Below, one piece after another: positions 9,437-27,548 of a DNA stretch of 64,000 nt. The DNA comes from Paenibacillus sp. (GTDB taxonomy: Bacteria; Bacillota; Bacilli; Paenibacillales; NBRC-103111), in assembly GCA_031180825.1 (NCBI GenBank), contig JAPSLM010000001.1, positions 310,001 to 374,000 on the forward strand, read 5' to 3'. Numbering within the stretch: position 1 is the first letter of the stretch; every line of letters starts with the position of its first letter. Under the pieces are notes generated by a model, which was not told the DNA's origin, did not search any database, and saw nothing but the letters and a program-made list of their open reading frames with translations. Made by a program: the position numbers and the translations under genes.

Positions 9437-10291
9437 ATGTTCCGATGGCTGCGCAAACAGAAGGACGAGGCGCAGAATGAAGCGGCAGCCGCCGTGCCAG
9501 CCGCTCCGCAGGAGATCGGCGCCGAGCTTCCGGAAGCTTCGGCCGAAGGGGAAGCTGCTGCGGCAAGCGACGGCGCAAGTGTCCTGGTCGACACCAGACC
9601 ACCCATTGACACGAGTATTCCGCTCCTTACCGTAAAGGGAGTGGAGCGTTCATTTCCTGTCGGAGGACAGCAGCTTCATGTGCTCAAGGGAATCAATATG
9701 GAGCTGTATCCGATGCAGCTTGTTATGCTGAAAGGCCGGTCCGGCTCGGGAAAGACGACACTGCTTAACATGATTGGCGGTTTGGACCAGCCGAACCGGG
9801 GACAAATCATGTTCAAGGAATACCCGTTCCATGAATGCAGTGACGATCAGCGGACATACATAAGAAGAAAAGAAATTGGATTTATTTTCCAGTCTTTTGC
9901 GTTAATGCCGCTTTTGTCCGCTTGGGAAAACGTGGAATTGTCGCTGCGCATGGCGAAGGTTCCCCGATCCGAGTGGAAGTCCCGCGTCACCCATTGCTTG
10001 GAGCTGGTGGGCCTCGGCAAGCGGATGCATCATCGTCCGTTCGAGCTGTCGGGCGGGGAGCAGCAGCGTGTCGCCATTGCCAAAGCCATCGCGCACAAGC
10101 CCAGTCTGCTGCTTGCCGACGAACCGACGGCGGAGCTTGATTCGCAAATGGGCAAGCAAGTCATGACGGTATTTCGCGACATTATCCATACCGAACGCAT
10201 GACCATTTGCATGACAACGCATGATCCGACAATAATGGAGGTTGCCGACCGTGTATTCGAAATGGTGGATGGAAAATTTATCAGTGGTTAA
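9437..10291 (+). CDS. ABC exporter ATPase (MacB/LolD type) with Ala/Glu-rich N-terminal tail
   Basis: 284 residues. ATP-binding subunit related to MacB/LolD ATPases that drive FtsX-type permeases: Walker A GRSGSGKT (100-107), Q-loop FIFQSFALMPLL, signature LSGGEQQR, Walker B LLLADEPTAELD and switch TTHDP. The first 60 residues are an unusual low-complexity extension rich in Ala, Glu and Pro before the ABC domain begins at LLTVKGVERSF. ATG 9437 has the perfect site aaggagg; an upstream in-frame ATG at 9362 lacks one. First gene of an export operon; its end overlaps the adaptor gene. The tail could be a membrane or partner tether, but that is a guess. Confidence 0.88.
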   Translation: MFRWLRKQKDEAQNEAAAAVPAAPQEIGAELPEASAEGEAAAASDGASVLVDTRPPIDTSIPLLTVKGVERSFPVGGQQLHVLKGINMELYPMQLVMLKGRSGSGKTTLLNMIGGLDQPNRGQIMFKEYPFHECSDDQRTYIRRKEIGFIFQSFALMPLLSAWENVELSLRMAKVPRSEWKSRVTHCLELVGLGKRMHHRPFELSGGEQQRVAIAKAIAHKPSLLLADEPTAELDSQMGKQVMTVFRDIIHTERMTICMTTHDPTIMEVADRVFEMVDGKFISG

Positions 10292-11354
10292 AAAAACGGG
10301 CAGGCCGTTGCTGCTCGTTTGCATCGCCGCATCCCTCGCGCTGTCGTCCGGGTGCTCGCTGCTGCCAAAGGAGGACGAGGAGGAAGTATTGCCGGCCATT
10401 ACCCCGCCCCAGATGTCCAAAAAACCGGAGTATGTGGTCAAAACGGAGACGCTGGAGTCCGAAATTTCTTTCACCGGAAAGCTGATGTCGACTGTGGAAG
10501 AAGATTTATACTTTACGGATGATGCCAACCGGCGGATCAAGTCCTTTCCGGTCAAAACCGGAGACAAGGTCGAGCAGGGGCAGCTGATCGCCGAGCTTGA
10601 TGTCACGGAGCAGGAAAATAAATTGCGGCAAAAACGGCTGCAGACGCGCCAGGATGAATTAAGTATGATCGAAAAGCTGCGCAAAGCCGACGAGACGGGT
10701 CCCGAGCAGCTTGAGCGGGATAAAATCGAATTCGAATTGAAAAAGGAAGAAGTAGCCACGCTTGAAAAAACGATTGCCGGAGCCAAACTGACGGCTCCTT
10801 ATGCAGGCACGATTATTTCCGTTTACATGAAAAAAGGAGATACCGCCAAGGCTTACGATGCGGTCGCCACAATCGCGGATCTGTCTCAGCTTACGGTGGC
10901 TGCAACCGTTAGCGCGGACAACCTGACGAAGGTGGCCGTCGGCATGGAAACTCAAGTGGACATCAACGGCGTGGGCAAGCTCAAAGGCAAAGTGTCGAAA
11001 CTCCCGAATCCGAAGGCCGAGAACAACGGCAGCGGCGAAGGCGGGTACCCTGGCGGAGGCCAGCAGAGAAAGCCGGATTCGATCGAGAACTACTTGTTGA
11101 TCCAGCTTGAGCAATTTCCGGAGGGGCTTGCCCATGGAACGAGGCTCGGGGGGAGAATTATTACCCAGCGCAAGGAAAACGCCGTTACGATTCCGCCTGC
11201 CGCTCTTCGTTCGTATTCGGGACGCAATTACGTGCAGGTTGTGGACGATAAAGGAAACAAACGCGAAGTGGACGTCGAGATCGGACTGCAGACATCAACG
11301 GCTCTCGAGATTGTGAAAGGTCTCACGCCGGGGCAGAAAGTAGTGGGACGCTAA
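10269..11354 (+). CDS. Lipoprotein membrane-fusion adaptor (MacA/HlyD type)
   Basis: About 361 residues. Signal peptide ends in a lipobox (LSSGC), so the protein should be anchored outside the membrane. It shows the adaptor layout: lipoyl-like half (VKTGDKVEQGQLIAELDV), an alpha-helical hairpin of about residues 120-180, second lipoyl half (LTAPYAGTIISVYMKKGD) and beta-barrel region with PPAALRSYSGRNYVQVVD. A short Gly-rich loop lies around GSGEGGYPGGG. The start is uncertain: ATG 10269 (MENLSVVKK) or the GTG at 10284; both overlap the ATPase gene. The permease gene starts on its stop codon. Predicted to link the ABC exporter to its external cargo. Confidence 0.82.
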   Translation: MENLSVVKKTGRPLLLVCIAASLALSSGCSLLPKEDEEEVLPAITPPQMSKKPEYVVKTETLESEISFTGKLMSTVEEDLYFTDDANRRIKSFPVKTGDKVEQGQLIAELDVTEQENKLRQKRLQTRQDELSMIEKLRKADETGPEQLERDKIEFELKKEEVATLEKTIAGAKLTAPYAGTIISVYMKKGDTAKAYDAVATIADLSQLTVAATVSADNLTKVAVGMETQVDINGVGKLKGKVSKLPNPKAENNGSGEGGYPGGGQQRKPDSIENYLLIQLEQFPEGLAHGTRLGGRIITQRKENAVTIPPAALRSYSGRNYVQVVDDKGNKREVDVEIGLQTSTALEIVKGLTPGQKVVGR

Positions 11355-14236
11355 TGGCGATGCTCCGGTTTTTATTCCGTAAAATGTGGAACACGCGCTG
11401 GCTGACGGTCAGCACGCTTGCCGGCCTCATTATGGCCGTCGCTTTTACGACCAGCATCCCGATGTATTCCGACGGCTCGCTGAAGCGCGTCGTGTCGAAA
11501 TCGCTCGAGGAGAAAAACAACGGACTTTCCGCCGGTGCCGTCTTGATCCGTTTTCAAGCGTCCGGCAATGAAAAAGCCGATCTGAATGCGCTGGGCGACG
11601 TGGATCAATACATACAGGAAGATTTGCCCAAGAGCATCGCGTTTCCGTATCAGGCTTACGTTCGGACGTATTCCATTCGCGGCTCACAAATTACGCCGGA
11701 GGATAAGAGCAAGGTCGATCCGAGCAAACGCCGGCAGATGACGTTGATGGCCCAGAACGGCTTGAAGGATCAAGTCGAGCTGACGCAGGGACAGTGGTTC
11801 TCCGAGCAGCCGCAGGGCGGAATCATCGAAACCGTTATTCACGAGGAAGCGATGTTCCGCAATGATCTCCATATCGGCGACGTCTTCACTTACCCGATCA
11901 GCGGCGGAAACGGCATTGCCCCGCTCAAAGTGAAAGTGACGGGAACGTTTAAGCCGAAAAACGATACCGATCAGTATTGGTATCAAGGGATGGAAAGCTT
12001 GCTCACGTCCCTTTTTATGAGCGAAGCCGGCTTTACCGATCACGTGCTGAAAAACAAAAAAGTCCCGCTTAGCTTGGCGAATTGGTACTATGCTTTTGAT
12101 TTGCGGGAGATCAAGACGAGCCAGCTGTCGTCGCTGGAGACAAAGCTGGAACGCTTGGATATCGTCTTGTTCCAAAAGCTCAAGAACACGAGGGTGGATA
12201 TTTCGTTTATTCCGCTGCTGCAGGAATTTAAGGTACAGAGCTTGCAGCTGCAAATGCTGCTCTTTACGTTGGCCGCACCGATGATCGCTATGGTGTTCTA
12301 TTATATTGTCATGAACGCGAGGCAATCGCTAGATCGCCAGCGCACCGTCATTGCGGTTCTCCGCAGCCGGGGCGGCAGCACGAATCAGATCATTTGGATT
12401 TATTTGCTCGAAGGGCTGCTGCTTGGCGCGGTCGCGATGGTCATCGGCCCGCTGCTCGGCTGGTTTATGGCGAAGAGCATAGGGTCGTCCAGCGGATTCC
12501 TGACATTCGTCGACCGCCAGTCCGTACCTGTCGGGGTATCGGCCGAAGCGCTGCTGTACGGCGTGGGCGCCGTTGTTATTGCGCTGATGGCCAGCGTCAT
12601 TCCGGCCATTCTCTACGCCAAGGCCTCCATCGTCAGCTATAAGCAGAAGCTGGCGAGATCGGATCGCAAGCCGTTTTGGCAGCGCTGGTTTTTGGATGTG
12701 GCGCTGCTCGGTCTGGTCGGTTACGGGTATTACCTGTTTCACGACCGTCAGGACTTGTTCAGCCGGACCGGACTTACGACCGATCAGTTGAGCGTGAACC
12801 CGCTGCTGTTTTTTGTTCCGGCCTTGTCGATCATTGCGCTCGGGCTGTTTTTCCTGCGCATCTTCCCGTGGCTGCTTCGCTTCGGCAATTGGCTGGGCAA
12901 AAGGCTGCTTCCGGTTCCCGTCTATCTGACGTTAACCCAGCTTTCGCGTTCGTCCATGGCATATTATCCGCTGATGCTGCTGCTTATTTTGACGCTTGGG
13001 CTCGGCATCTATAACGCTTCTGCGGCCCGGACGATCGACTTGAACTCGACGGAACGGGTGCTTTATGCTTACGGTACCGATGTCGTAATGAGAGCGGAAT
13101 GGACCGCCGTATCCGAGGAGCTGCCGCCAACGTCCAATCCTAACAAGGGCGGGCAGGGCCAAGGACAGGGGCAAGGCGGTGCCGGCGGGAAGAATCCCGG
13201 TCAGCCCGGGGGGCAGGGCGAAGGTCCGCCGCCAAAGCAACGCTTCATCGAGCCTCCGTTCGAAGTGTTCCGGGAGCTGGAAGGCGTAGAACACGTAGCC
13301 CGCGTACTGCAATCCAAAGGGAACGTGGTCGTTTCCGGCAAGTCGCTCGGACAAGGCATGCTGGTGGGCATCGATAACGTCGATTTTGCGAAGGTGGCCT
13401 GGTTCCGTAAAGACTTGTACAAAACGCATCCTTATAACTATTTGAATTTGTTGGGGCAATACGAGCAAGCGGTCATCATTCCGACCTCTTTTGCCGATAA
13501 ACATCATATCAAGGCGGGAGATTTGATCAACATTTCGGTTTCCAGCCAGCCGATCGAATTTGTCGTGGTAGCCACCGTGCCGTACTGGCCGAGCCAGTAT
13601 CCGGACCAGACGCCGTTTTTCATCGCTAACCTTGACTATATATATGATCAAGGGCCCGTTACACCTTATGATGTATGGATGAAAATGAAAGACGGAGCCA
13701 AAGTGGCGCCGATCATGGAAGCGCTGAAAGCAAAGAATATCGGCATTGCCAGCGTCAAAGACGTCCGCAACGAACTGATCACGCAGAAAAAGCACCCGGC
13801 GCGCGGCGGTGTGTTCGGTATTTTGAGCCTCGGCTTTCTCGTATCCGTTCTTGTCTCGTTGATCGGTTACATTTTGTACTGGTTTTTCAACTTGTCCAGC
13901 CGGGTCGTTCAGTTCGGCGTGCTGCGCGCCATGGGGTTGTCGCGGAGGCAGCTTACGGGCATGCTGCTGCTTGAGCAGCTATTTACCGCCGGTCTGGCCA
14001 TTGCACTTGGTCTCGGCATCGGCAAACTGACGAGTTACTTGTTCCTGCCGTTCCTGCAAACTGCGGAGAACGTCAAGACGCAGGTCCCTCCGTTCCGCGT
14101 TATTTTCGATGCGAGAGATACGGATCAGCTGTACATCGTCGTGGCCGTTATGATGCTGACCGGTGCCGGACTGCTGTTCCTTCACATCAGAAGGCTGCGG
14201 GTACACCAGGCCGTGAAGCTGGGAGAGGAGAAATGA
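11354..14236 (+). CDS. FtsX/MacB-family ABC permease, large two-domain form
   Basis: 960 residues. N-terminal signal-anchor helix (LTVSTLAGLIMAVAFTTS), a large extracellular domain, an FtsX core at about residues 295-425 (LLFTLAAPMIAMVFYYIV, GLLLGAVAMVIGPLLG), a second extracellular domain, and a C-terminal FtsX core from about 820 (FLVSVLVSLIGYILYWF, VLRAMGLSRRQL). A Gly/Gln/Pro-rich low-complexity insert sits at about residues 596-626 in the second extracellular domain. The start overlaps the adaptor stop (taatg). Both ATPase genes flank it, so one of them or both should energise it. Confidence 0.88.
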   Translation: MAMLRFLFRKMWNTRWLTVSTLAGLIMAVAFTTSIPMYSDGSLKRVVSKSLEEKNNGLSAGAVLIRFQASGNEKADLNALGDVDQYIQEDLPKSIAFPYQAYVRTYSIRGSQITPEDKSKVDPSKRRQMTLMAQNGLKDQVELTQGQWFSEQPQGGIIETVIHEEAMFRNDLHIGDVFTYPISGGNGIAPLKVKVTGTFKPKNDTDQYWYQGMESLLTSLFMSEAGFTDHVLKNKKVPLSLANWYYAFDLREIKTSQLSSLETKLERLDIVLFQKLKNTRVDISFIPLLQEFKVQSLQLQMLLFTLAAPMIAMVFYYIVMNARQSLDRQRTVIAVLRSRGGSTNQIIWIYLLEGLLLGAVAMVIGPLLGWFMAKSIGSSSGFLTFVDRQSVPVGVSAEALLYGVGAVVIALMASVIPAILYAKASIVSYKQKLARSDRKPFWQRWFLDVALLGLVGYGYYLFHDRQDLFSRTGLTTDQLSVNPLLFFVPALSIIALGLFFLRIFPWLLRFGNWLGKRLLPVPVYLTLTQLSRSSMAYYPLMLLLILTLGLGIYNASAARTIDLNSTERVLYAYGTDVVMRAEWTAVSEELPPTSNPNKGGQGQGQGQGGAGGKNPGQPGGQGEGPPPKQRFIEPPFEVFRELEGVEHVARVLQSKGNVVVSGKSLGQGMLVGIDNVDFAKVAWFRKDLYKTHPYNYLNLLGQYEQAVIIPTSFADKHHIKAGDLINISVSSQPIEFVVVATVPYWPSQYPDQTPFFIANLDYIYDQGPVTPYDVWMKMKDGAKVAPIMEALKAKNIGIASVKDVRNELITQKKHPARGGVFGILSLGFLVSVLVSLIGYILYWFFNLSSRVVQFGVLRAMGLSRRQLTGMLLLEQLFTAGLAIALGLGIGKLTSYLFLPFLQTAENVKTQVPPFRVIFDARDTDQLYIVVAVMMLTGAGLLFLHIRRLRVHQAVKLGEEK

Positions 14237-14240
14237 TGCA

Positions 14241-15119
14241 GTGATTCATTGCGACGGACTCGTCAAAATATACAAGACCGACGATATCGAGGTCGTTGCG
14301 CTTCAGGGGCTGAACATTTCCGTCGCCAAAGGGGAAATGATGGCAATTATCGGGAACAGCGGCAGCGGCAAGTCGACGTTACTGAACATATTGGGGGGGC
14401 TGGACCGCCCCTCCGCCGGTCAGGTGCGCGTAGGTGAATGGAACCTGCTGAAAATAACGGACGACGAGCTGGTGCAGTACAAGCGCAAAACCGTCGGCTT
14501 CATCTGGCAGAACAATGCGCGTAACCTCATTCCTTACTTGACGGCGCTCGAAAATGTGGAAATGCCGATGATGCTCACCGGCCAGTACGACCGTGCCTAT
14601 GCGAAGCAGCTGCTGGAATGGGTCGGTCTCAAAGAACGGTTCAACAACAAGCTGCAGCAGCTGTCCGGCGGTGAGCAGCAGCGGGTGGCGATTGCGATCG
14701 CGCTGGCAAACCGCCCGTCCTTGCTGTTGGCCGACGAACCGACCGGTTCCGTCGATACCCGGACGTCGGATATGATCATGGACATTTTCCGGCATCTGAA
14801 TTCCGAGCTTGGCGTGACCATCGTTATCGTAACCCATGATATGGCCCTTGCCGGTAAAGTGGACCGTGTCGTCGCCATCCGCGACGGGATGACGAGCACC
14901 GAATTCGTCAAGCGCAATCCGAACCTGGAAGCCGAGGGCGAAACGGCGGCATCGCACGGATCGATTCACGATGTCCATGAAGAATACGTCGTGCTCGACC
15001 GGGCGGGGCGGCTTCAAATTCCGCGGGCGTATTTGCAGGCGCTCGGGATCGAAGGAAAGGCATCGATGGAATTCGACGGCGAAAAAATCATTATACGAAC
15101 GCCGAAGTCTTTAGATTAG
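14241..15119 (+). CDS. ABC exporter ATPase with C-terminal AbrB-like domain
   Basis: 292 residues, GTG start with gggagaggag upstream. Walker A GNSGSGKST, signature LSGGEQQR, Walker B LLLADEPTGSVD and THDMALAGKVDRV are all present, so the ATPase should be active. After the ABC domain (to about residue 225) comes a linker and a tail at 247-292, beginning EYVVLDRAGRLQIPRAYL and ending DGEKIIIRTPKSLD. This reads like a SpoVT/AbrB-type swapped-hairpin beta domain (DxxGRlxIPkxxxxxLgi...). Fusion of that fold to an exporter ATPase is unusual. It follows the permease by four bases and completes the ABC module. Confidence 0.85.
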   Translation: MIHCDGLVKIYKTDDIEVVALQGLNISVAKGEMMAIIGNSGSGKSTLLNILGGLDRPSAGQVRVGEWNLLKITDDELVQYKRKTVGFIWQNNARNLIPYLTALENVEMPMMLTGQYDRAYAKQLLEWVGLKERFNNKLQQLSGGEQQRVAIAIALANRPSLLLADEPTGSVDTRTSDMIMDIFRHLNSELGVTIVIVTHDMALAGKVDRVVAIRDGMTSTEFVKRNPNLEAEGETAASHGSIHDVHEEYVVLDRAGRLQIPRAYLQALGIEGKASMEFDGEKIIIRTPKSLD

Positions 15120-15173
15120 CACGAAGGATCTCGGAAGCAAAGAGATACATATTAACCGATGGGGATCTGAAAT

Positions 15174-16598
15174 ATGAACAAGTGCGCTAGGAGAACGGTG
15201 CTGCTGTCGCTCAGCGCCGGCTTGTTGGCGTCGACACTAACTGCTTGCACCAAAACGGGCAGTAATGACGGTAAAAGCGAAAGAATACTCCGGATTGCGA
15301 CCGATGATTATGCAAATGAAAATGATTATTTCCGGGAGCAGTTCAGCGAATTGTTCGAATTTGCCAATCCGAACATTAAGCTGGAATTCGTTTCGACCCT
15401 GGACGAACGTTTTAGGTACGGATCCCCCAATCCGAACGAGAAGTCCAAGGACCCGTTTGACCGTTTGAGCGAATTGATGACGGGCGACAATCCTCCGGAT
15501 GTCGTCATGATCGATTACGATCAACTCCCGGAGCTTGCCGGAAACAACCTGCTGAAGCAGTTGGATCAGGATATCGCCAAGGATAAATTCGATATGAGCG
15601 ATATCGCTCCTGCTGTCATCGAAGGTATCAAAAAGGCGGGCGACGGCAAAGTTTATGCGCTGGCTCCAACTTTTACTTCGTATGCTCTGATCTACAATAA
15701 AAAACTGTTCGATGAGGCGGGGGTTCCGTACCCGGTCGACAAAATGACATGGGACCAAGCCTTCGATCTGGCTCGGCGGCTATCCAAAGGGGAGGGGGTT
15801 AACCGGAAATTCGGTTTTTCGTTTTCAACTTCCAACAGCAGGGGAAACCGTCTGGATATTGCTATGCGGGTTTATACCGAGCCGTTGCAGTTGAGAATGT
15901 TTGACGATAGCGGCGAGAAAATGACGGTGGATTCCGAACAATGGGAACAAGTATGGAAGACGCTGCTGCAGTTGAAGACGGAAAAACTTTTACCGGAGCC
16001 GGTGGAAGATCAGAATGAGGATCATCCGTTTCAAGACGACGATTTCCTGTCGGGCCGTGTCGCGATGTCGCTTATTAACTATTGGGATGTTCATTCGGTT
16101 GCCGACATCATGAAAAACGCGCACAATTATAAAGGTCTGACTCCGTTCGATTGGGATGTCGTCACGTTGCCTGTTCACCCCGAAGCGCCGGAAAACGGTT
16201 ATGACATCCGAATGTACGGCTTGATGGGAATCAGTGCCAAGGCGCAAAATACGGAGGACGCGTGGAAATTCATCAAGTTCGTCAACGGCGAGGAGTGGGC
16301 CCGACTTAAAGGTAGCAGTTCCGACAACCTGATGGCGCGGCAAAAATATATTAAGCCGAAGAACGGAGCGGACTTCAACATCAAAGCGTTCACGACGCTG
16401 CTTCCCGCACCGGCCGTCGAAGACAAGCTCCATCGCAAGCTGCCGAACTTGTACCAAGTAAAAGCTATCGGCAAGCGCAAATTGTTAGAAGTCAGCGTGA
16501 ATCAACTTCGAATACGCGAGGCGCTGAAGCAATGGCAAAGCGAGGGGGATGCCATGCTTCAGAAGATGAAGGTCGATCCGAATGCGTCTTTCGATTAA
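15174..16598 (+). CDS. Extracellular solute-binding lipoprotein (copy 1)
   Basis: 474 residues. Lipobox LTAC places the lipid-anchored Cys at residue 25. The rest is a family-1-like extracellular binding protein with ILRIATDDYANENDYFREQF, NPPDVVMIDYDQLPELAGN, APTFTSYALIYNKKLFDEAG and a late DAWKFIKFVNGEEWARL segment. No importer permease lies nearby; the neighbours are an exporter and a paralogue. Start at ATG 15174 after gggg. It lies 54 bases downstream of the ABC ATPase gene, so co-transcription is plausible. Role inferred as capturing or sensing a ligand outside the cell for the export module. Confidence 0.85.
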   Translation: MNKCARRTVLLSLSAGLLASTLTACTKTGSNDGKSERILRIATDDYANENDYFREQFSELFEFANPNIKLEFVSTLDERFRYGSPNPNEKSKDPFDRLSELMTGDNPPDVVMIDYDQLPELAGNNLLKQLDQDIAKDKFDMSDIAPAVIEGIKKAGDGKVYALAPTFTSYALIYNKKLFDEAGVPYPVDKMTWDQAFDLARRLSKGEGVNRKFGFSFSTSNSRGNRLDIAMRVYTEPLQLRMFDDSGEKMTVDSEQWEQVWKTLLQLKTEKLLPEPVEDQNEDHPFQDDDFLSGRVAMSLINYWDVHSVADIMKNAHNYKGLTPFDWDVVTLPVHPEAPENGYDIRMYGLMGISAKAQNTEDAWKFIKFVNGEEWARLKGSSSDNLMARQKYIKPKNGADFNIKAFTTLLPAPAVEDKLHRKLPNLYQVKAIGKRKLLEVSVNQLRIREALKQWQSEGDAMLQKMKVDPNASFD

Positions 16599-16653
16599 CC
16601 TTTTTAAGACTTCCTTGATTTATACATAGAAACTAATCTGGAGGGATTCGAGA

Positions 16654-18120: not shown

Positions 18121-18188
18121 GCTGTCCCGTCTTAACCAAGAAAGCGAGCAGTACGTTCGGAGTGAACCCAACAAGGAGGAACAACAAG

Positions 18189-20396
18189 ATGAATTCCAAA
18201 CGCAAACGATATAAAACTTGCATAGTTATGCTGGCAGCCGTACTTGCCTTCGGGTCTGCGCTCCCCGCCTTCGCGGCGGAGGGCGGCACGAACCCGCCTT
18301 CGGCAACAACGGCGTCCATCTCGACAGGCACCGCTCCGGCGATCGGACAAGTAGCTCTTAACGCAAGCAGCTATTTCGAGCTTAAAAATGTCGTCATGAT
18401 GCCGGAGCAAGGCAACAAAACCGTGACGTTCACCGTAGGAGTCCACAATGGAGGGACGACCGACCTGCAGTTCATCGACTACTGGCCGCGGATGAGGACG
18501 AAAAACGGCAACCAAATTTCCGTTCGCGTCCTGCCGCAGGACAAGGATAAAAACCGCATTCCGGCCAAGTCGAGCCAAGATATTAGCTTTTATGCAACGG
18601 TGAACGAATCGACCGACCTGAAAGATCTTATTTTCGAAATGATCAAATGGGATTTCAGCATGCCGGAGACGGATTTTGTGCGAAAAATCGGAGAGGTGAG
18701 CGTTCCCGACGATTATTCCGTCGTTACGCCGGGCGGACAAGCGCACACGATTCAAATGGCGAATAATCCTGTCAAAGGCGTCATCAAAAAGGTATTGATG
18801 AGCAAGAACGAGAAAAATTACACGCCGACCATCGTGCTTAATCTGGAGAACGTAGGCTCGAAGAGCGTAGCGGTTCCCGGATATCAATATTTGCTTCGGA
18901 CAAGCGAAGGGTACATGTATCCGCTTGACGCCAAGGCTGTAAAAGATTTGACCATCAATCCGCAAACGAACAAGGATATCGATCTTACAGGCTCCGTTCC
19001 GGTTTCCGTCTCAACGGAAGGCTGGCAGCTGGTCATCGTTCAGAACGCGCAGGATTTGAAGCTGAATCTGCCGATCGCTTTCTTCGCTCTGCCGGGCGTA
19101 TCGGATACGGACGGGGTGGACACGGGTAAAGCCTTCAGCTTCACGAACAAAACGGGCACTTACACGGCTCAGTTAAACACGGTTCAACGGCTGCCTTGGG
19201 AGGACCAGGATCTTTTGACCGCAGGGTTTACGCTTTCCAACAAAGGCCCCGAAGCGCTTCCGATTCCCGAGCTGACGGGGTACTTCAAGCTGGACGACAA
19301 CGTGAAGGTGGAAGCAAAGCTGGTTCAAACGGACAATGTGATCGGCCTGGCCCCGAATGCGGAAGCTCAATTCCAGCTTATCGGGAAACTCCCTTATACG
19401 TCGCAGTTCGGCAAGGTGAAGCTTGTGCTGCAAGAGAAAACGGGCAGCGGAAGCAGCGACGGCAAGACGGAGCAGCAGACAGCGACAAACGACTTGCTCG
19501 AGTTCGTACACCGCTCGGAGCTGATGAATATTCCTTATAATAACATCGGAGAAACGTATAAAGTGACCAATGTGGGCCGCAGTATCAGCTATAAAGTGCG
19601 TTCCGTTACAACCTATGGAGGCGAGACGGCCGATACGTTTACCGCCCTTCTCGAAGTAAGCAACCTGGAATCAAGAGCCTCGGACATTTCAAAGCTGGTA
19701 GGTTATTTCAAAACGGCCAATGGAAGATACTTCCCGGCGGCTATTTCGGAAATTAAGACAAAAATCAATCCGGATGGAAAGGCACTTCTATTGCTTTCTA
19801 CTAATGTTTCTAAAGGATTCCCAACCTCCGGCACGAGTGTGATTATCGGTGAGGCCGTAACCGAAGGCAAGTTGACCGAGGCGGACAAGAAACCTGAAGC
19901 TTATGTCAACGCTGTTGCTCACTGGCTACCGCAAGAAGACTTTACAGTTAAGACAGATTTGAAAAACATTGATCTCGTTCCTTACCAGCTATCGTTTAGC
20001 AATATTCGCACAACAATTGATCAAGCCGGCGTAAAGCTCAAGATGGACTATGAGTTAACCAAAGATTTGATGCTGACCACGAACATGGAAGGACGCAAGC
20101 TGATCGTCGAGCTTGATGACGCGGACCGAAAAATTAAATTTAACAAAGAATTTGAGTTCAAAGATTTCGATGGAGGGACGCCTGATAAACAAGGTGCGGC
20201 CACTAATCGGCTCGATCCTAAGGATAAGATCGTTATCGGCAAGCATAAGGATTTGGAATTGAAAGCAGATGATAAAGAATTGATTTTTGAAGTCAGCTAT
20301 GTCAAAAAATTCAAGCTTAACCTCTACGATTCGTATCAAGGACAAAAGAAGCTGATTGCTACTAAAGAGGTAGAGTGGTTTATTGCCACGGAATAA
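18189..20396 (+). CDS. Large secreted protein with Ig-like/DUF4352-like repeats
   Basis: 735 residues. A signal peptide ends AFGSALPAFAA with cleavage near residue 31. The mature part seems to hold five beta-rich units of roughly 110-140 residues, each with an N-x-G or NxGxxxxxxP core followed by a Y-x-x-R-T-xEG-like strand (LNLENVGSKSVAVPGYQYLL, FTLSNKGPEALPIPELTGYF, LEVSNLESRASDISKLVGYF). No enzyme motif is visible. ATG 18189 follows a perfect aaggagga site; the GTG 27 bases upstream lacks one. Same repeat style as the protein at 25740-27548. I infer a cell-surface or envelope partner of the export module. Confidence 0.75.
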   Translation: MNSKRKRYKTCIVMLAAVLAFGSALPAFAAEGGTNPPSATTASISTGTAPAIGQVALNASSYFELKNVVMMPEQGNKTVTFTVGVHNGGTTDLQFIDYWPRMRTKNGNQISVRVLPQDKDKNRIPAKSSQDISFYATVNESTDLKDLIFEMIKWDFSMPETDFVRKIGEVSVPDDYSVVTPGGQAHTIQMANNPVKGVIKKVLMSKNEKNYTPTIVLNLENVGSKSVAVPGYQYLLRTSEGYMYPLDAKAVKDLTINPQTNKDIDLTGSVPVSVSTEGWQLVIVQNAQDLKLNLPIAFFALPGVSDTDGVDTGKAFSFTNKTGTYTAQLNTVQRLPWEDQDLLTAGFTLSNKGPEALPIPELTGYFKLDDNVKVEAKLVQTDNVIGLAPNAEAQFQLIGKLPYTSQFGKVKLVLQEKTGSGSSDGKTEQQTATNDLLEFVHRSELMNIPYNNIGETYKVTNVGRSISYKVRSVTTYGGETADTFTALLEVSNLESRASDISKLVGYFKTANGRYFPAAISEIKTKINPDGKALLLLSTNVSKGFPTSGTSVIIGEAVTEGKLTEADKKPEAYVNAVAHWLPQEDFTVKTDLKNIDLVPYQLSFSNIRTTIDQAGVKLKMDYELTKDLMLTTNMEGRKLIVELDDADRKIKFNKEFEFKDFDGGTPDKQGAATNRLDPKDKIVIGKHKDLELKADDKELIFEVSYVKKFKLNLYDSYQGQKKLIATKEVEWFIATE

Positions 20397-20431
20397 TTAC
20401 ATTCATGTAGTAATTTTTTCTTGATTAAACG

Positions 20432-20479
20432 AAACCGTTTCTGTATCAGTTGCGTAAAACTGAGCAGAAGCGGTTTTTT
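20432..20479 (+). terminator. Terminator of the ABC module
   Basis: aaaccgtttctg (20432-20443) pairs with cagaagcggtttt near 20465-20477, followed by six T. A weaker hairpin (attaca/tgtagtaat with T run) lies directly after the stop at about 20397-20420. Confidence 0.85.
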
Positions 20480-20615: not shown

Positions 20616-21125
20616 ATGAGTAAACCGCATCTCTCGTTTGGCGAATATAAATGGACGGTCACCCAGCAAATGTCCCGTACTTTTGAATTGGAAGGTTGCA
20701 GCCCGCTTGTCGGCAAAATATTCGGCCTGCTTTTATTTGCACCAAAACCTGTCAGCCTCCAAGAAATCGCCGATCAGCTTGGCGTAACGAAAGCGGCCGT
20801 GAGTGTCCAAGTCCGCGCGTTGGAAAAATACTCCATGTGCCAAAAAATTCCGATGAGAAGCGACCGGAAAGACTACTATTACATATCCGAAGATTTTACA
20901 TTGATCAGCATGCGGGCCAGTAAGCAAAAAATCGAATTAATAACCAAGCGGAGCGAAGAACTGTTGTTCGCGCTCAAAGGAATGTCTCATATTGACGAGG
21001 CAGAAAAAGAATCGTTCGAGGTTTCCAAACGAAGATTTGCGGAAGTTGCCGCCATGTACCGCATGTTTTTATCGAGATTGGAGGGGATCGAAGAAGAGTG
21101 GATCCGTTTAAAAGAGCAGCTATAA
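20616..21125 (+). CDS. GbsR/MarR-like transcriptional regulator
   Basis: 169 residues. A winged helix-turn-helix is evident at LQEIADQLGVTKAAVSVQVRAL, followed by a wing (RSDRKDYYYISED) and a long C-terminal helix pair, the layout of GbsR-type MarR relatives. I start at ATG 20616 because aaggaga lies seven bases before it; the open frame extends 33 codons upstream through the promoter region, which I exclude. It directly precedes an RND pump operon, so control of that pump is the natural guess. The dimeric operator candidate lies in its own promoter. Confidence 0.82.
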   Translation: MSKPHLSFGEYKWTVTQQMSRTFELEGCSPLVGKIFGLLLFAPKPVSLQEIADQLGVTKAAVSVQVRALEKYSMCQKIPMRSDRKDYYYISEDFTLISMRASKQKIELITKRSEELLFALKGMSHIDEAEKESFEVSKRRFAEVAAMYRMFLSRLEGIEEEWIRLKEQL

Positions 21126-21290
21126 AGGCATGACGAAAGACGAGGGCCCGGATTTTTTTATGTTATGACTTTTTTCACCTTACAGCCGCTAACGAACCAA
21201 GCTATACTGAAAAAAGATTTGTGGAAAATGAAGGGGTAACCGGAAATGCCTCGTCTAAGTAGTCAGCAACCGTAATGGAGGAGTAGAGAG

Positions 21291-24200
21291 ATGAATTCAT
21301 TAACAAATTTTTCGATGAAGAACATCGCCGCAGTCATTATTATTGTGCTGATGTTATTTGGCGGCGGTACTTATGCGGCTTCCATCTTGAAGATGGAGCT
21401 CATACCGAGTACCACGCAAACGAGATTTAATATTACTACCCAGTATACAGCTCCTCCGAAGGATGTCTTGGAACTGGTGACCAAGCCTGTCGAGAAAGCG
21501 GTGGCGGGACTAGACGGGATCAAATCTTTGAAGTCCACCTCCAGCGATAACTTCTCCATGGTTACCGTCGAACTGCAGCAGGGGAAAAAAATCGAGGATG
21601 CCAGAAGGGAAGCCGAAGGCTTGCTTGCCAACGTCAAGCTGCCCCAAGGCGCGGAAAAACCGAAGGTTCAGACCTCGAGCGCCGAAGCGAGTGCCATTTA
21701 CTACCTCTCGGTCTACGGCGAAAACAACATGAGCCAGCAAGAGCTGGATAAAACCTACAAGGATATTATTCAGCCGGGCTTTGCCGCCATCAAAGGCGTG
21801 GACCGTGTCGAAGGGGTCGGCAACAAAGAAGCGGTCCTGACCTTAAGGATGAACGGCAACGCAATCGGCAGCTACGGGCTGACGCCGGCGCAGGTGTCCC
21901 AAACGATCCAAGCCTCCATTCTGACAAGTCCAGCCGGATTAGTCGACTTCAGCGGGAACACTCAGATGGTACGCGTAAAGAGCGATCTCAATACGATTTA
22001 CAGTTTGGAAAACATGAAAATTACGGCACCGGGGGGACAAACGCTTCTTCTGAAAGACATCGCGAAGGTCGAAGCGATTTCCGAGTCCAGATTCATTTCG
22101 CGCCTCGACGGCAAGCCGGCCATCGGTGTGACGATTTATAAAACCAAAAACTCTAACGACGTACAATTGGCTAAGGAAGCAGACGCTTTGATGGCCAAGT
22201 GGAAGCAGGAATTTCCGAACATTACGTTTAAAACGCTTTTTGCTACATCGAGCATGATCCAGGATTCGATTAACGGCATGGTCAAGGAAGGAGCGCTTGG
22301 CGCCCTGCTTGCCTCTATCATGATTTTGCTCTTCCTTAGAAACGTTCGGATGACCATCATCGTTTTGGTCTCTATCCCATTGTCGTTGTTGATCACGCTT
22401 CTCATCATGGCTCCGTTGGATATTTCGCTCAACATCATGACGCTGGGCGGGATTACGATCGCGATCGGGCGTGTCGTGGACGATAGTATCGTCGTTATCG
22501 AAAATATTTACAGCGAGCTCGTGAAAATTCACGAACGCGGAGAATCGGTCATTAAGAGAGCGACCGCGCAAGTCGCTTCGGCGATTACGTCCTCCACGCT
22601 TACCACCGTCGGGGTTTTTGCACCTATTGCTTTTGTCGGGGGAGAGCTCGGGGATTTGTTCCGGCCGTTCGCCGTCACGCTTTCCGCTGCCTTGCTGTCT
22701 TCGCTGCTGGTAGCCGTGACCGTTATTCCGATGCTGGCCAAGCTGCTCGTGCTGCGCTCCAAAAATATTAAGGTTCACGACGAAACGCAAGTCGGCAAAA
22801 TGTCCGGCGCTTACTTGAAAGTGTTGAAATGGTCGCTTAATAACCGTATCAAAACAATGCTGCTTTCCATGCTGGTATTTTTTGTGGCTATCGCAGGCTC
22901 GGTTCCGTTCCTGGCCGTAGAGTTCATGCCTTCCAGCGATTCGGACAAACAAATGTTTATTATGATTAAAATGCCTCGGGAAACATCGCTTGCATCGAAC
23001 GATTTAAAAATGAAGGAAATCGAAGCGATGATCCGCGAGACGAAAAACGAGGCGGGAGAACCCGCTTTCGAGTATATGCAATCCTATGTAGGGGGAGGTA
23101 CTGCAGATAACCGCATTGACTATGAAAGCCAGTTAATCGGTGCAGCGTCACAGGGAACGAACGCCAAGAAGCTGCTGAATGAAACGAAGGAAAAAATTAT
23201 GTACCTGCTTCCGAAAGGCTCCGAGGTAAACGGCATGCTGCTTAGCGGCGGAGGCCCCGGGGGCGGAGGAGACTTCTCCTATATGCTGAAAGGCGACGAT
23301 CTGAACCTGTTGACTCAGGGAGCCAAAATGGTGAAGGATAAGCTCAAGGAAATTCCCGAATTCCGCGATATCAAAGACAGCTTGAGCGAATCGAAGAATG
23401 AAGTGGAAATTGCCGTAGATCAAAACAAAGCCAGATTATACAATTTAACTTCCGCACAAATCGTCGAAACCGTCAATTCTTGGCTGAGAGAGGAAAAGAT
23501 CGGAGATCTGAAATTCGATAATACGACCTTCTCCACCAAGATCATGCTGGATAAGAGCTTCAAGGATTCCATTGACAAAATCGGCAGCTTCCTGATCAAG
23601 ACTCCTACGGGAGCGACTATCAAGCTGAATGAAGTAGCGAAGGTGCGTCAAATCGAAGCTCCGGCGTCGATTACCCGGGACCAGCAGGTCCAATACGTAA
23701 CCGTAACGGCAACGATCGAGTCCAGGGATAAGGGCGGCGTCAGCGCCAAAGCGGCCGAAATGCTAAGAACCTTGGATCTTCCGTCGGGAGTACGTCCTGA
23801 AGTCAAAGGGGTCTCGGACGATATTCAGAAAAACTTCATGCAAATGTTCGTAGCCATGGCCGTCTCCGTCTTTATTGTTTATCTGATTATGGTTTTGGCT
23901 TTCGGAAATGCGAGTGCGCCGTTTGCGATCTTATTCTCTTTGCCGCTTGCGGCGATCGGAGGCTTGCTCGGCTTGCTCGTCAGCGGCGAATCGCTCAACC
24001 TTACCTCATTGATCGGGTTCTTGATGCTGATCGGTGTCGTGGTGACCAATGCGATCGTGCTTATCGACCGCGTGCAGCAGCTGCGGGATGCGGGGCAATC
24101 CGTACGCGACGCGCTTTTGGAGGGTGGCTTATCCCGGCTTCGTCCGATTATCATGACGGCAGGGGCTACCATTATCGCCCTGCTGCCGTTGGCTCTTGGA

Positions 24201-24392
24201 TTCTCTAAAGGGGCGCTAATCTCTAAAGGCTTAGCTGTTGTCGTAATTGGCGGATTGACCACTTCGACTTTGCTTACGCTGGTCGTTGTGCCGGTCGTAT
24301 ACGAAATGATTTATAATACGAAGACCCGTATCGGCCGCTTGTTCAAAAGAAAGGCATCGGACTCCAAGTCTACGCCGGTAACGAATGCCTAA
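21291..24392 (+). CDS. RND efflux permease (AcrB/SwrC family)
   Basis: 1033 residues, full length for HAE-type RND pumps. The first membrane helix (MKNIAAVIIIVLMLFGGGTY) is followed by a large external loop, helices 2-6 around residues 330-530, a second external loop and helices 8-12 at the end. Helix 4 carries the proton-relay aspartates in GRVVDDSIVVIENIY. The second loop includes a Gly-rich stretch (LLSGGGPGGGGDFSYML). In Bacillus the relative SwrC/YerP exports surfactin. Here the adaptor gene and a secreted repeat protein follow, and a GbsR-like regulator precedes. Substrate unknown. Confidence 0.93.
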   Translation: MNSLTNFSMKNIAAVIIIVLMLFGGGTYAASILKMELIPSTTQTRFNITTQYTAPPKDVLELVTKPVEKAVAGLDGIKSLKSTSSDNFSMVTVELQQGKKIEDARREAEGLLANVKLPQGAEKPKVQTSSAEASAIYYLSVYGENNMSQQELDKTYKDIIQPGFAAIKGVDRVEGVGNKEAVLTLRMNGNAIGSYGLTPAQVSQTIQASILTSPAGLVDFSGNTQMVRVKSDLNTIYSLENMKITAPGGQTLLLKDIAKVEAISESRFISRLDGKPAIGVTIYKTKNSNDVQLAKEADALMAKWKQEFPNITFKTLFATSSMIQDSINGMVKEGALGALLASIMILLFLRNVRMTIIVLVSIPLSLLITLLIMAPLDISLNIMTLGGITIAIGRVVDDSIVVIENIYSELVKIHERGESVIKRATAQVASAITSSTLTTVGVFAPIAFVGGELGDLFRPFAVTLSAALLSSLLVAVTVIPMLAKLLVLRSKNIKVHDETQVGKMSGAYLKVLKWSLNNRIKTMLLSMLVFFVAIAGSVPFLAVEFMPSSDSDKQMFIMIKMPRETSLASNDLKMKEIEAMIRETKNEAGEPAFEYMQSYVGGGTADNRIDYESQLIGAASQGTNAKKLLNETKEKIMYLLPKGSEVNGMLLSGGGPGGGGDFSYMLKGDDLNLLTQGAKMVKDKLKEIPEFRDIKDSLSESKNEVEIAVDQNKARLYNLTSAQIVETVNSWLREEKIGDLKFDNTTFSTKIMLDKSFKDSIDKIGSFLIKTPTGATIKLNEVAKVRQIEAPASITRDQQVQYVTVTATIESRDKGGVSAKAAEMLRTLDLPSGVRPEVKGVSDDIQKNFMQMFVAMAVSVFIVYLIMVLAFGNASAPFAILFSLPLAAIGGLLGLLVSGESLNLTSLIGFLMLIGVVVTNAIVLIDRVQQLRDAGQSVRDALLEGGLSRLRPIIMTAGATIIALLPLALGFSKGALISKGLAVVVIGGLTTSTLLTLVVVPVVYEMIYNTKTRIGRLFKRKASDSKSTPVTNA

Positions 24393-24451
24393 GAATCCAT
24401 TTTCATTCAGATAGATAGAGAGTTCCATAAGGGAAAAAGGAGAATCAGCCC

Positions 24452-25708
24452 ATGAATCCGATCATTTCGAAATCATTCAAGCAAAGTACCAAAGTGATGG
24501 GGGCCGTCGTTATTTCGACGGCGCTCCTCGCCGGCTGCGGCGCCCAACAGCAAGCCGCACCGACGACAGCCAACGCGTCGGAACCCCAGCTTAAGACCGT
24601 TAAGGTCACGAAGATCGAGAAGCAGAGAATCGGCGATCCGCAGGAGCAGGTAGCCGATGTCATTTCTTCGATCCAGATTGACGTGGTGACCAAGGTAGGC
24701 GGGGACGTCATGGAAATTTTGAAGAAGCGCGGCGATATGGTGGAAAAGGGCGATGTCATTTTCCGCATGGACCCGACGGATGTCAATCTTAAAAAGGAAA
24801 AAGCGCAGATTGACGTTTCAAGCAGTCAACAGCAGTTGGAAAAAGCAAGGCAAGAATTGGCCAACAGCAAGCAGGAGATGAAAAATGGAATCAAGAAGCT
24901 GGAAGATTCCATTAAGGAAACCGAAAAGAACTATAACAAAATGCGTAATGATTACGATATGGGCTTGGTGACGAAATTCCAGCTTGAGCAAATGGAAACG
25001 CAGCTTAACAATCTTAAGCTCGAACTGGAAAACAATCTGAACAAGCAGAAGACGCTGGAATCGACGAACTCCTTGGCCCCGTTGGAGCAAGCGCTGCAGT
25101 CCTCGAATCTCATGATTCGCGAAGCCGACCGGACGCTCGAAAATATGGAAGTAAAAACGACGGTTAGCGGCATTTTAACCGATCTGCCGATTGAAGTGGG
25201 CATGTCTTTGAACGCCGGTTTCCAAGCCGGCAAAGTTCAGCAGCTCGATCCGATTAAAATCCGGGCGGAGCTGACCGAAGAGACGGCCAATTTGGTACGC
25301 GGCAAGCAGGAGCTTACATTTTACGTCCCAGGGACGCTGGAAAACACCAAAGCCAAGGTCAGCTATTTGGCTGACGTCATGAGCGCCAATTCCAAGTCTT
25401 ACACGTTGGAGCTCGAATATCCTAACGCTGAGCGTAAGCTTAAGCCTGGCATGAAGGCTCAGATTCTTGTAACGGAAGAAGCTGATCAGATGGTTGTTGC
25501 CGTTCCTACTACGGCTATCGTACGCGAAGGCGGAGATACGTTCGCTTTCGTACTCGTAGGCGATACGGCGGAGAAACGCAAAGTGGCTTTGGGCCGTCTG
25601 AACGAAACGATCCAAGAAGTGCTGTCCGGTCTCAAAGAGGGAGAGCAGCTCGTCATTTCGGGTCAAAACCAATTGAAAGACAAAGAGAAAGTCCAGCTGG
25701 CTAAGTAA
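24452..25708 (+). CDS. RND-pump adaptor lipoprotein
   Basis: 418 residues. Lipobox LAGC with Cys29. Classic membrane-fusion layout: first lipoyl half (DVVTKVGGDVMEILKKRGD), a long coiled-coil hairpin at about residues 110-205 rich in Lys/Glu/Gln/Asn, second lipoyl half (KTTVSGILTDLPIEVG), beta-barrel and membrane-proximal domain (VAVPTTAIVREGGDTF, LKEGEQLVISGQNQL). Site aaggaga before the ATG. It lies 59 bases after the RND gene and 31 before the secreted-protein gene, forming one operon. Confidence 0.92.
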   Translation: MNPIISKSFKQSTKVMGAVVISTALLAGCGAQQQAAPTTANASEPQLKTVKVTKIEKQRIGDPQEQVADVISSIQIDVVTKVGGDVMEILKKRGDMVEKGDVIFRMDPTDVNLKKEKAQIDVSSSQQQLEKARQELANSKQEMKNGIKKLEDSIKETEKNYNKMRNDYDMGLVTKFQLEQMETQLNNLKLELENNLNKQKTLESTNSLAPLEQALQSSNLMIREADRTLENMEVKTTVSGILTDLPIEVGMSLNAGFQAGKVQQLDPIKIRAELTEETANLVRGKQELTFYVPGTLENTKAKVSYLADVMSANSKSYTLELEYPNAERKLKPGMKAQILVTEEADQMVVAVPTTAIVREGGDTFAFVLVGDTAEKRKVALGRLNETIQEVLSGLKEGEQLVISGQNQLKDKEKVQLAK

Positions 25709-25739
25709 CCCGCAGCGGACCCGACAGGAGGAAAACCAA

Positions 25740-27548
25740 GTGAACAACAAGTTGAAAAAAACCGTAGCATCCGTCGTTATTACCGCCTCGATCATGAGCA
25801 CAGGTTATTCCGCTTTGGCGGCAGAGCCTGCAGGAAGCGAGCCTGCGGCGCAAGCCGTCGTAACCTATAAACTGACCGACCTTCTCGATGTGGAAGTTAA
25901 AGGAGTATTAAACGAGCGAATCCAGGACGGCACCCGACTCGGTGTCGTCATTCGAATGAAGAATAACGGCACCGGCTCGACGCGGGTACCGGATTACGAA
26001 TTGCGGGTGAAGACCAGCGAAGGCATCGAATATACGCTGCAGCCAAGCGCTTCGAATGCGAAGTCGATTCAGCCGAAAGCGAATACGGAGCTCAGCTATA
26101 TGACCGTCATTGACCGCACCGACACCGTAAATCTGGTCCAAGTGAATTGGACCGATGTCGATTACTACGTGTACCCGAAGAAGGAGACGCTGATTGTGGC
26201 GGCGCCGATTGCGGGGGAGCCTTGGAAGGGCGGAGATACGCCGATTACCGATCCAAGCGCGATTAAGAAATGGTCCGAATCCTTTACGATCCCAACCTTA
26301 ACCTCGCCGATTCAATATACGCCGGTAGCGATTAACAAGGAGTCGACGGATAAGGGTACCGTATACGTCGTGCAATTGCTTGCTTATAATCCTTCGGACC
26401 AGCGCGAAACGATTCCGGCTTTCACTATAGACGGTAAGGCGGCGGGAAAAATATTCTCCGGCGGTTTGGTAGAGCAAGGAAGCATTACGCTGGAAGCGAA
26501 GGAAGATAAATATATTCATTTCGCCATCCCGACGGACCAGGATACAATCTTGACCAGCCTGAATGTGCTGACGCCTGAAAAATTTGCTGTAGCAGGCGGA
26601 GCCGGTGGTGCAGGGCTCGGCGGAGGCGCAAGCACTGCCGGAGCTGAGGCAGGCGGAGCGGCTGGAGCAGGAGCGGGCGCCAATGCCGGCGCAGCCGGCG
26701 TGTATAACGTAGGGCGTCTGAACATTTTGCTGCCGTCGCAGCAATCCGGAGAAGTTGCACTAGCCTACAAGCTCGGCACTCCAATGTCGCTGGACAAACG
26801 GAGCCAGTTGATCCATCCGGATATGGAGGTTTCCGTTATCGAGTTCCATATGTTTGACAACAAAGACGAAGGCTCGAAAACCGTCTCGGCCAAATTCAAG
26901 CTTAGCAATAAGACGGACCGGCCGCTTGCCGTTCCGGCGTTTGCGACGGATCTGGTCAGTTCGGACGGTTATGAGTATAACGGCAGCCGTCAAAATATTA
27001 CGACGCCGAACGTGCTTCCGAATTCTTCGCTCACCGTAAACTACTTTTATACGATCCCGGTTTCCGAAACCGGAAAGGGCTTGTCTCTGAAGATCCAAGA
27101 TACGAAGACGGCCGCTCCGTATAAGACGACGATTGGCGCCTACAGCATTGCGCTTCAAACCGATGAAAGCAAGGATACGTTGGTGCTGTATCCATTTGAA
27201 ATTAAAGTGAACGACTGGCAAATCGGTACAAGCTTCAATGCCATGGGAGCGAAGAATTACCAGTACAAAGCGAAATTCGTTATGGAAGTCAACCGTCACG
27301 ATCAAGTCCAAGTGGATCCGAGCTTCTCAGGATTGCTGTTCGAACTGTACGACTCCGCAGACCGGTTGATCGGAACGGGCAACGGAGCGTTTGTCGGAGC
27401 TAACCGTCTGGCTACTGGCGAAAACAATATCACTTTTGACGGCAGCACGGAACAATTTGATCATCCGTTAACGGTTCGGATTTACGAACAGTTTACGACG
27501 GCGGACGGGCAGAAGTCCAAGCGTCTGCTTACCGTACTGAAGCAATAA
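25740..27548 (+). CDS. Secreted repeat protein of the RND module, with Gly/Ala-rich linker
   Basis: 602 residues, GTG start after a perfect aggagga site. Signal peptide ends STGYSALAA. Four Ig-like beta units recall those of the 18189-20396 protein: VVIRMKNNGTGSTRVPDYEL followed by RVKTSEGIEYTLQ, and AKFKLSNKTDRPLAVPAF followed by SSDGYEY. Between the second and third unit is a low-complexity Gly/Ala linker at about residues 283-320. No catalytic motif. Terminator follows. Because the same class of protein closes both export modules, I infer that these are dedicated extracytoplasmic partners or cargo. Confidence 0.72.
   Translation: MNNKLKKTVASVVITASIMSTGYSALAAEPAGSEPAAQAVVTYKLTDLLDVEVKGVLNERIQDGTRLGVVIRMKNNGTGSTRVPDYELRVKTSEGIEYTLQPSASNAKSIQPKANTELSYMTVIDRTDTVNLVQVNWTDVDYYVYPKKETLIVAAPIAGEPWKGGDTPITDPSAIKKWSESFTIPTLTSPIQYTPVAINKESTDKGTVYVVQLLAYNPSDQRETIPAFTIDGKAAGKIFSGGLVEQGSITLEAKEDKYIHFAIPTDQDTILTSLNVLTPEKFAVAGGAGGAGLGGGASTAGAEAGGAAGAGAGANAGAAGVYNVGRLNILLPSQQSGEVALAYKLGTPMSLDKRSQLIHPDMEVSVIEFHMFDNKDEGSKTVSAKFKLSNKTDRPLAVPAFATDLVSSDGYEYNGSRQNITTPNVLPNSSLTVNYFYTIPVSETGKGLSLKIQDTKTAAPYKTTIGAYSIALQTDESKDTLVLYPFEIKVNDWQIGTSFNAMGAKNYQYKAKFVMEVNRHDQVQVDPSFSGLLFELYDSADRLIGTGNGAFVGANRLATGENNITFDGSTEQFDHPLTVRIYEQFTTADGQKSKRLLTVLKQ

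Follow-up and report, generated by a model that had tools for sequence, protein, structure and literature searches.

A 64,000-nucleotide stretch of a Paenibacillus-like genome (hereafter the window, G000:C29:310001-374000; source genome of 4.33 Mb, 85% complete) carries two (+)-strand gene units, module 1 (9437-20396) and module 2 (20616-27548), and both are closed by a gene for a Sec-type secreted repeat protein, designated REP. The constant partner of REP is the adaptor (membrane fusion protein, MFP) and not the pump, and this REP-adaptor partnership is well supported by genomics. In Paenibacillales REP may well act in the wall zone as the third component of export systems that depend on an adaptor, docking on this adaptor at the place where TolC docks in diderms; we give this reading about even chances. 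Tripartite export itself is known, and REP is a candidate for its third component that was not found described in the open-licence literature searched.

Linkage of REP genes to adaptor genes

Six single-contig genomes of relatives (41.4 Mb) contain 31 REP genes, up to ten copies per genome, and 46 adaptor genes. All 31 REP genes are accompanied by a same-strand adaptor gene at a distance of 8 kb or less, and the nearest adaptor is never further away than 5 kb. By random placement 0.36 of the 31 would be linked, and none of 20,000 trials linked more than 4. Seen from the other side, 31 of the 46 adaptors have a REP gene within 8 kb. Five A-type REPs (resembling REP A of module 1) lie beside a B-type module (with a relative of REP B of module 2), so that their nearest adaptor is the neighbour's, their own being located about 5.4-5.8 kb off in the opposite direction. 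For the six-genome count REP and adaptor rows were entered by hand, fragment rows inside entered genes were left out and adjacent adaptor pairs (G070 at 8.483 Mb, G097 at 6.302 Mb) were merged.

A scan of named genomes has found the adaptor upstream of REP in 79 out of 80 loci (80 of the 96 found), the remaining locus starting at a contig end. The fetched loci, a set chosen by hand and not at random, include 160 distinct REP genes, 51 of which were dropped for short flanks; an adaptor lies within 8 kb of 98 of the other 109, where neighbour counts cover REP matches inside the fetched stretches. Two results would have refuted the first-pass annotation of the window: secreted proteins without homology, and family members usually residing away from exporters. 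Neither was obtained, as REP A and REP B are homologous (see below) and both samples (31/31 and 98/109) place the family next to exporters.

Five REP genes were found in the source genome, two in the window and three elsewhere, all of them in exporter operons (a B-like profile counted six matches there, four of which are among the matches listed). The C17 operon consists of RND, adaptor and REP genes in this order. The C12 operon codes for an adaptor, an ATPase, a MacB-type permease and REP; matches to MacB_PCD (5.5e-42), FtsX (2e-19), ABC_tran and HlyD families identify a MacB-type permease with the core domain, accompanied by an ATPase and an adaptor. In the C14 operon TetR, adaptor and ABC-2 permease genes are followed by REP, whose start overlaps the permease stop. 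No ATPase gene adjoins the adaptor, ABC-2 permease and REP genes of this operon (L011:5837-10030). Five of the six adaptor genes of the source genome have a REP, and the single REP-less one (C23) is located beside an ATPase and a MacB-type permease; two adaptor rows with frames below 200 residues, C17:145358 (E 3.9e-4) and C12:228584 (E 5.6e-4), were left out of this count.

Layout of the two modules

All genes listed by the first-pass annotation were found at their positions, and its description of module composition is right. Module 1 runs from an ATPase through an adaptor lipoprotein, a 960-residue FtsX permease, a second ATPase and two solute-binding lipoproteins to REP A, and module 2 comprises a MarR/GbsR-type regulator, an RND permease, an adaptor lipoprotein and REP B:

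9437-10291, + strand: module 1 first ABC ATPase, LolD/DevA/FtsE-like, 284 residues (ABC_tran; ATG at 9437 behind AAGGAGG)
10242-11354, + strand: module 1 adaptor (membrane fusion protein) lipoprotein (HlyD_D23 2.6e-12; TIGR01730 over cut-off)
11354-14236, + strand: module 1 long FtsX-type permease, 960 residues (FtsX 2.1e-22, two stretches)
14241-15119, + strand: module 1 second ABC ATPase with a C-terminal extension (ABC_tran 3.5e-32)
15174-16598, + strand: module 1 extracellular solute-binding lipoprotein 1 (SBP_bac_1 7e-28)
16654-18120, + strand: module 1 extracellular solute-binding lipoprotein 2 (SBP_bac_1 5.9e-27)
18162-20396, + strand: module 1 REP A, 744 residues (Sec-type signal and no lipobox, both by eye; homology to REP B)
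20431-20477, + strand: intermodular terminator hairpin (-26.8 kcal/mol, z -6.33)
20616-21125, + strand: module 2 MarR/GbsR-type regulator (ATG at 20616 behind AAGGAGAAG; MarR 1.4e-5)
21291-24392, + strand: module 2 AcrB-family RND permease, 1033 residues (ACR_tran 4.6e-203)
24452-25708, + strand: module 2 adaptor lipoprotein (HlyD-type family; TIGR01730 1.2e-44; invariant Cys29; conserved hairpin tip N162-G171)
25740-27548, + strand: module 2 REP B, 602 residues, four immunoglobulin (Ig)-like domains (homology to REP A, DUF4352, model)

Since a strong terminator hairpin separates the modules, they are probably two separate transcription units. A terminator-like repeat with a run of T's (about 27573-27592, by eye) is located 3' of REP B. 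Signal peptides and lipoboxes of the window proteins were called by eye. Some gene starts have alternatives: the listed reading frame of the module 1 adaptor overlaps the first ATPase from 10242 on, and the true start may be downstream; an alternative in-frame ATG would shorten REP A to 735 residues; a longer frame of the regulator opens at 20517. This regulator has a CudC-like match (1.7e-14) below the cut-off, and the tail of the second ATPase has a weak MraZ match, also below the cut-off. Every score of module 1 against the curated LolD, LolC/E and MacB models was under cut-off, and the matches of the RND permease to NCBIfam subfamily models are likewise below their cut-offs. Judging from these gene families, both modules would serve export, and their substrates can be surmised on the same basis.

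REP proteins as one family of Ig-like arrays

Both secreted proteins had initially been taken for the same repeat family. BLASTP aligns REP A with REP B at E 2e-6 over 84 residues, and comparison of a profile of 12 A-type proteins with one of 49 B-type proteins results in a probability of 97.6 and E 2.6e-12 over 341 columns, so the common family is confirmed. The matches extend to individual domains: A-type segments 60-195 and 190-320 both correspond to REP B domain 1, and the last A-type segment matches domain 4 weakly (probability 18). Domains 1, 2 and 3 of REP B (about 43-157, 185-287 and 319-472) are mutually homologous, and domain 4 (474-602) is distinct, conserved and C-terminal. The AlphaFold2 model of REP B (mean pLDDT 82.4) consists of four beta-sandwich domains; its Gly/Ala-rich linker at residues 288-318 is of low confidence. 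Gly/Ala/Ser-rich low-complexity linkers of this kind (window positions 26601-26693 in REP B) sit differently among REP paralogues, including the REPs of L012 and L013.

The closest solved fold to REP B is 5bxg, a beta-sandwich protein of C. difficile. Other matches of the fold search are single-domain and weak multi-Ig ones, including weak matches to RbmA and WxLIP scaffolds, and none of them is full-length. A search of solved structures by sequence returned one chance match for the B-type (E 0.37) and none for the A-type. REP B domain 1 is recognised by DUF4352 (29.7 bits over residues 51-109, the cut-off being 25.9), and no Pfam or NCBIfam family, DUF4352 included, scored over cut-off for REP A. 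The domain match and the 5bxg fold make REP B similar to DUF4352 domains, which we take to be MPT63-like Ig domains; REP differs from these by the tandem array and by the distinct conserved C-terminal domain.

The nearest full-length named relatives of REP B (87-90% identity) belong to Paenibacillus ehimensis, P. tyrfis, P. elgii and P. oleatilyticus; identity to the protein of Paenibacillus sp. A3 reaches 93% over a partial match. Within the same family, a profile of four B-like paralogues matches 101 out of 104 genomes, with up to 15 matches per genome. At wider ranks the A-type profile matches 42 of 398 genomes of the class and 7 of 398 genomes of the phylum, and the B-type profile 26 of 299 genomes of the class. 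All seven phylum matches belong to the same order, and seven class matches of the A-type profile fall outside the order (f3, f13, f14, f20, f26 twice and f44).

Energisers and gene order around the adaptor-REP pair

The first-pass annotation had tied one partner class to two unrelated energy systems. This was understated, as at least six arrangements occur, and the constant element turned out to be the adaptor, not the pump. RND permeases accompany adaptor and REP at most loci. Other energisers include MacB-type ABC transporters, the long FtsX ABC type with binding proteins and ABC-2 permeases in two gene orders. The module 1 arrangement recurs in families f20, f3 and f26 (L151, L163, L164) with one to three binding proteins; the L164 stretch begins within the first ATPase, and the L165 stretch ends within the permease. 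MFS transporters are found at L183 and L186 (MFS_1 4e-55 and 1.8e-55), and a sugar-type permease pair with a binding protein at L156, L172 and L185 (permeases named by eye). Six polysaccharide clusters (L059, L072, L097, L114, L123, L192) hold adaptor and REP with no adjoining RND, ABC or MFS pump; L192 has a Wzz match (7.3e-13), and the remaining polysaccharide-cluster genes were named by eye.

In four loci the adaptor gene lies between the sugar-type ABC permease pair and the solute-binding protein gene, with REP in L156:3541-10438, L172:4494-11409 and L185:6639-13361 and without REP in L207:8003-12277. An adaptor within an importer-like operon is odd.

The position of REP also varies: it is the last gene in f1 loci and often the first one in f2 and in L145 of G115. 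This is not one frozen operon, therefore, and a linkage that outlasts changes of gene order and energiser speaks for function. The same observation bears on the possibility that an ancestral adaptor-REP operon has merely been copied many times, with REP performing an unrelated role at the surface. REP and adaptor distances do co-vary as those of co-inherited genes would, and REP also exists in an exporter-less S-layer-like locus described below. However, REP is kept with the adaptor despite the altered order and energiser, and the linkage is complete across the six genomes, where REP reaches up to ten copies, which makes such hitch-hiking improbable.

Being large, secreted and encoded at the operon end, REP could also be viewed as a substrate exported by the neighbouring pump. 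We consider this extremely improbable: REPs start with an ordinary Sec-type signal (by eye) and are present in clusters without a pump, and we know of no RND or MFS pump that carries folded 65-80 kDa proteins.

Solute-binding lipoproteins encoded between pump and REP in module 1, and in one to three copies in other families, bring to mind yet another function, that of an extracytoplasmic chaperone or binding protein which takes cargo from the adaptor, or of a cargo sensor, located between membrane and wall. Strong divergence of REP paralogues from one operon type to another would suit this role. However, one REP family serves systems as unlike in their expected cargoes as polysaccharide clusters, RND pumps and ABC transporters, and no pocket or catalytic motif was identified, although no systematic search was made for one. 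We regard this function as unlikely.

The adaptor hairpin tip

The module 2 adaptor possesses lipoyl, barrel and alpha-hairpin domains, as indicated by family match, model and Foldseek, and the solved folds nearest to its model (pLDDT 85.9) are those of AcrA and MexA, which are the adaptors in pumps of the TolC or OprM type. Helix 109-169 is followed by a turn at 170-174, which puts a conserved block at the modelled apex. Over 47 non-redundant adaptors (of 83, both RND and other type) this tip block (consensus ynK.rNdyd) averages 1.00 bit of entropy; the two preceding ten-residue blocks average 1.96 and 2.11 bits and the two following ones 1.60 and 1.74 bits. N162, K163, N166, G171, Q180 and the lipobox Cys29 are invariant in 38 aligned REP-linked adaptors.

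The RLS docking motif is absent from the tip of the module 2 adaptor, where K163 and D167 occupy the positions of R and L (compared by eye, at the usual spacing of the motif). At the RLS places, REP-linked adaptors of the RND/polysaccharide type have K in 38/38, D in 35/38 and T in 25/38 cases. The ND-type tip is characteristic of RND loci (57 of 59 adaptors) and occurs in 11 of 24 other REP-linked adaptors. A review of such adaptors places the RLS motif at the hairpin tip, ascribes to it a role in TolC binding and adds that the motif is not absolute (PMC4446572).

A TolC-like protein in the place of REP

TolC-like (OEP) operons with adaptor and ABC-2 permease genes occur in many Paenibacillaceae (L203:5769-9671, L204:5894-9774, L238-L257), bacteria that should lack an outer membrane. 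These 22 adaptor/ABC-2 loci (L203, L204 and 20 more) hold a TolC-like protein in the position occupied by REP in the source-genome operon. The proteins are 429-551 residues long and form one family, with the OEP domain recognised at 5.7e-8 and 1.6e-9 in the two tested. The L203 operon is homologous to the TetR-adaptor-ABC-2-REP operon of C14 (permease E 2e-30, adaptor 5e-26), so the TolC-like (PF02321) proteins and REP share the third slot of this operon; they differ in that the former have an OEP domain, and no sequence similarity between the L203 OEP protein and REP was found.

The adaptors of OEP-type loci differ at the tip from the REP-linked ones of the RND/polysaccharide type. All 21 whole adaptors retain R-xxx-[LM]-xxxxxx-[SA] there (the L252 adaptor frame is in two pieces); the OEP-type (21) and REP-linked (38) sets were matched by eye. 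The strict pattern R-xxx-L-xxxxxx-[ST] proved to be a poor description of these tips, with matches in 3 of the 22 OEP-type loci, one of them away from the tip.

No match to the TolC family PF02321 was found at E up to 0.001 in the source genome, which is 85% complete. PF02321 matches are present in 66 of 103 genomes of the family, some of them being adaptor hairpins or other long frames. The best 20 PF02321 loci include 16 with a TolC-like gene adjoining an ABC-2 permease, three long frames without one (L218, L229, L236) and one adaptor (L235).

A broader reading is speculative. Paenibacillales might possess a general-purpose outer module, an adaptor ring with an Ig rod replacing TolC, for RND, ABC, MFS and polysaccharide export, and the tip sequence might encode the type of the outer partner (Ig rod or TolC-like). 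This is a tentative proposal, possible and no more than that.

Proposed role of REP and its alternatives

Homology, gene partnership, the Ig-like fold (as a model), conservation of the tip at the modelled apex and the slot shared with TolC-like proteins were computed, and the secretion signal was recognised by eye. From these we infer a contact of REP with the adaptor tip, a location of REP in the wall, its role as a conduit or anchor, the direction of transport and the cargo. In the proposed mechanism a pump or another membrane translocase would pass cargo to the adaptor (MFP) ring, as in diderm tripartite pumps. The long alpha-hairpin of the adaptor would be directed outward, and its tip would dock on REP as it does on TolC in diderms. 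REP would be a Sec-secreted rod of Ig-like domains situated in or above the peptidoglycan, extending the adaptor tube through the wall or anchoring it there, with the result that cargo would be freed outside and not beside the membrane. One adaptor-REP pair could serve RND, ABC, MFS and polysaccharide export, since REP would contact the adaptor only.

Several observations weigh against this mechanism. In the six single-contig genomes, no REP gene lies within 8 kb of 15 of the 46 adaptors; REP is therefore dispensable for some adaptors. Two of these 15 are accompanied by a TolC-like protein (L203, L204), two are followed by SLH proteins (L205, L208) and the one of L217 by a 1,061-residue secreted protein; no such third gene was seen for the other ten. 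Among the REPs with adequate flanks 11 of 109 have no adaptor: ten in the S-layer-like locus and the eleventh in L146 (G115). Conservation of the adaptor tip is not unique to it, as one block near the adaptor C-terminus is equally conserved (0.96 bit, the only lower value). None of the seven ABC-2 and none of the six MacB-type REP-linked adaptors has the ND-type tip, and one REP-linked adaptor carries a strict R-xxx-L-xxxxxx-[ST] match. In the mirror-tree comparison the co-variation of REP with the adaptor (r 0.97) hardly exceeds its co-variation with the RND permease (r 0.94); this fits plain co-inheritance and is not decisive as a proof of REP-adaptor contact. A literal REP tube is doubtful, since the modelled beta-sandwich array has no sign of a pore or ring. 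The anchor and conduit variants fit the present data alike.

A polysaccharide-type cluster without REP (L213:4481-8419) has a 604-residue adaptor gene adjoining a Wzz-like gene (by eye).

The REPs without an adaptor come mainly from two genera of a sister family (f2: g24, g26), where a single A-type REP gene is located near metK (named by eye) and a gene for a large secreted protein (L147, L148, L150, L158, L159 and L176-L180). The large neighbour has an SLH domain in the one case tested. These ten REPs, from ten genomes, in a surface-layer-like locus indicate that REP can exist without an exporter. They also argue for REP being a wall- or S-layer-bound scaffold which anchors and positions the adaptor ring and stays outside the cargo path. 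The two REP-less adaptor operons followed by SLH surface proteins (L205, L208) and the weak fold matches of REP to RbmA and WxLIP point in the same direction. However, neither SLH nor any other wall-binding family was detected in the ten REPs scanned (REP A, REP B and eight further ones), and one would not expect to find a TolC-like coiled-coil protein in the slot of a pure anchor. On balance such a scaffold has perhaps a one-in-four standing in our judgement, below that of a docking partner.

The two SLH operons deserve a description of their own. In L205:6732-15044 an adaptor and an RND pump are followed by a 966-residue RCC1-repeat protein that bears SLH domains and may be an outer partner of a different kind. 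In L208:298-7537 an adaptor and a long FtsX-type permease are followed, where REP would be, by a 1,094-residue protein whose SLH match barely exceeds the cut-off.

Comparison with known exporters

No described system of such composition had been known to the first-pass annotation, and none was found by full-text searches of an open-licence library, judged by title and start of abstract, subscription papers lying outside this scope. The available parts of PMC5985334, PMC4446572, PMC5768738 and PMC8277102 name no secreted Ig-repeat partner.

Module 2 resembles AcrAB-TolC and MexAB-OprM in having an AcrB-family RND permease, an AcrA/MexA-like adaptor and a third gene in the operon. It differs in that this third gene codes for an Ig-repeat protein, with no TolC-family match in the 85% complete genome, and in that R and L of the RLS motif are replaced by K and D at the adaptor tip (by eye).

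The C12 operon is similar to YknWXYZ of Bacillus and Spr0693-0695 of Streptococcus, which likewise combine an adaptor, an ATPase and a MacB-type permease in the absence of an outer membrane. For these two systems the available texts name no secreted Ig-repeat partner, and the Bacillus system has in YknW a fourth component, a four-helix membrane protein. YknX is reported to bind peptidoglycan (PMC5985334), and the role of an adaptor without an outer membrane is raised as a question (PMC5985334; PMC4446572). Spr0693-0695 was modelled as a tube that reaches about 154 A above the membrane, a height comparable to the sub-peptidoglycan space (PMC5768738). The large hairpins preserved in some Gram-positive adaptors are called hard to explain in PMC4446572. 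Why bacteria without an outer membrane keep long-hairpin adaptors, which elsewhere dock on TolC, is a puzzle in the reviews (PMC4446572; PMC5985334). REP is a candidate partner for such adaptors, with a predicted contact site; its profile matches 101/104 genomes of one bacterial family, and wherever neighbours were counted in loci and genomes of this family it occurs beside adaptors of several pump classes. Should the docking of REP prove true, a wall-crossing stage would be added to Gram-positive export, and the outer partner, Ig rod or TolC-like, would be readable from the adaptor tip.

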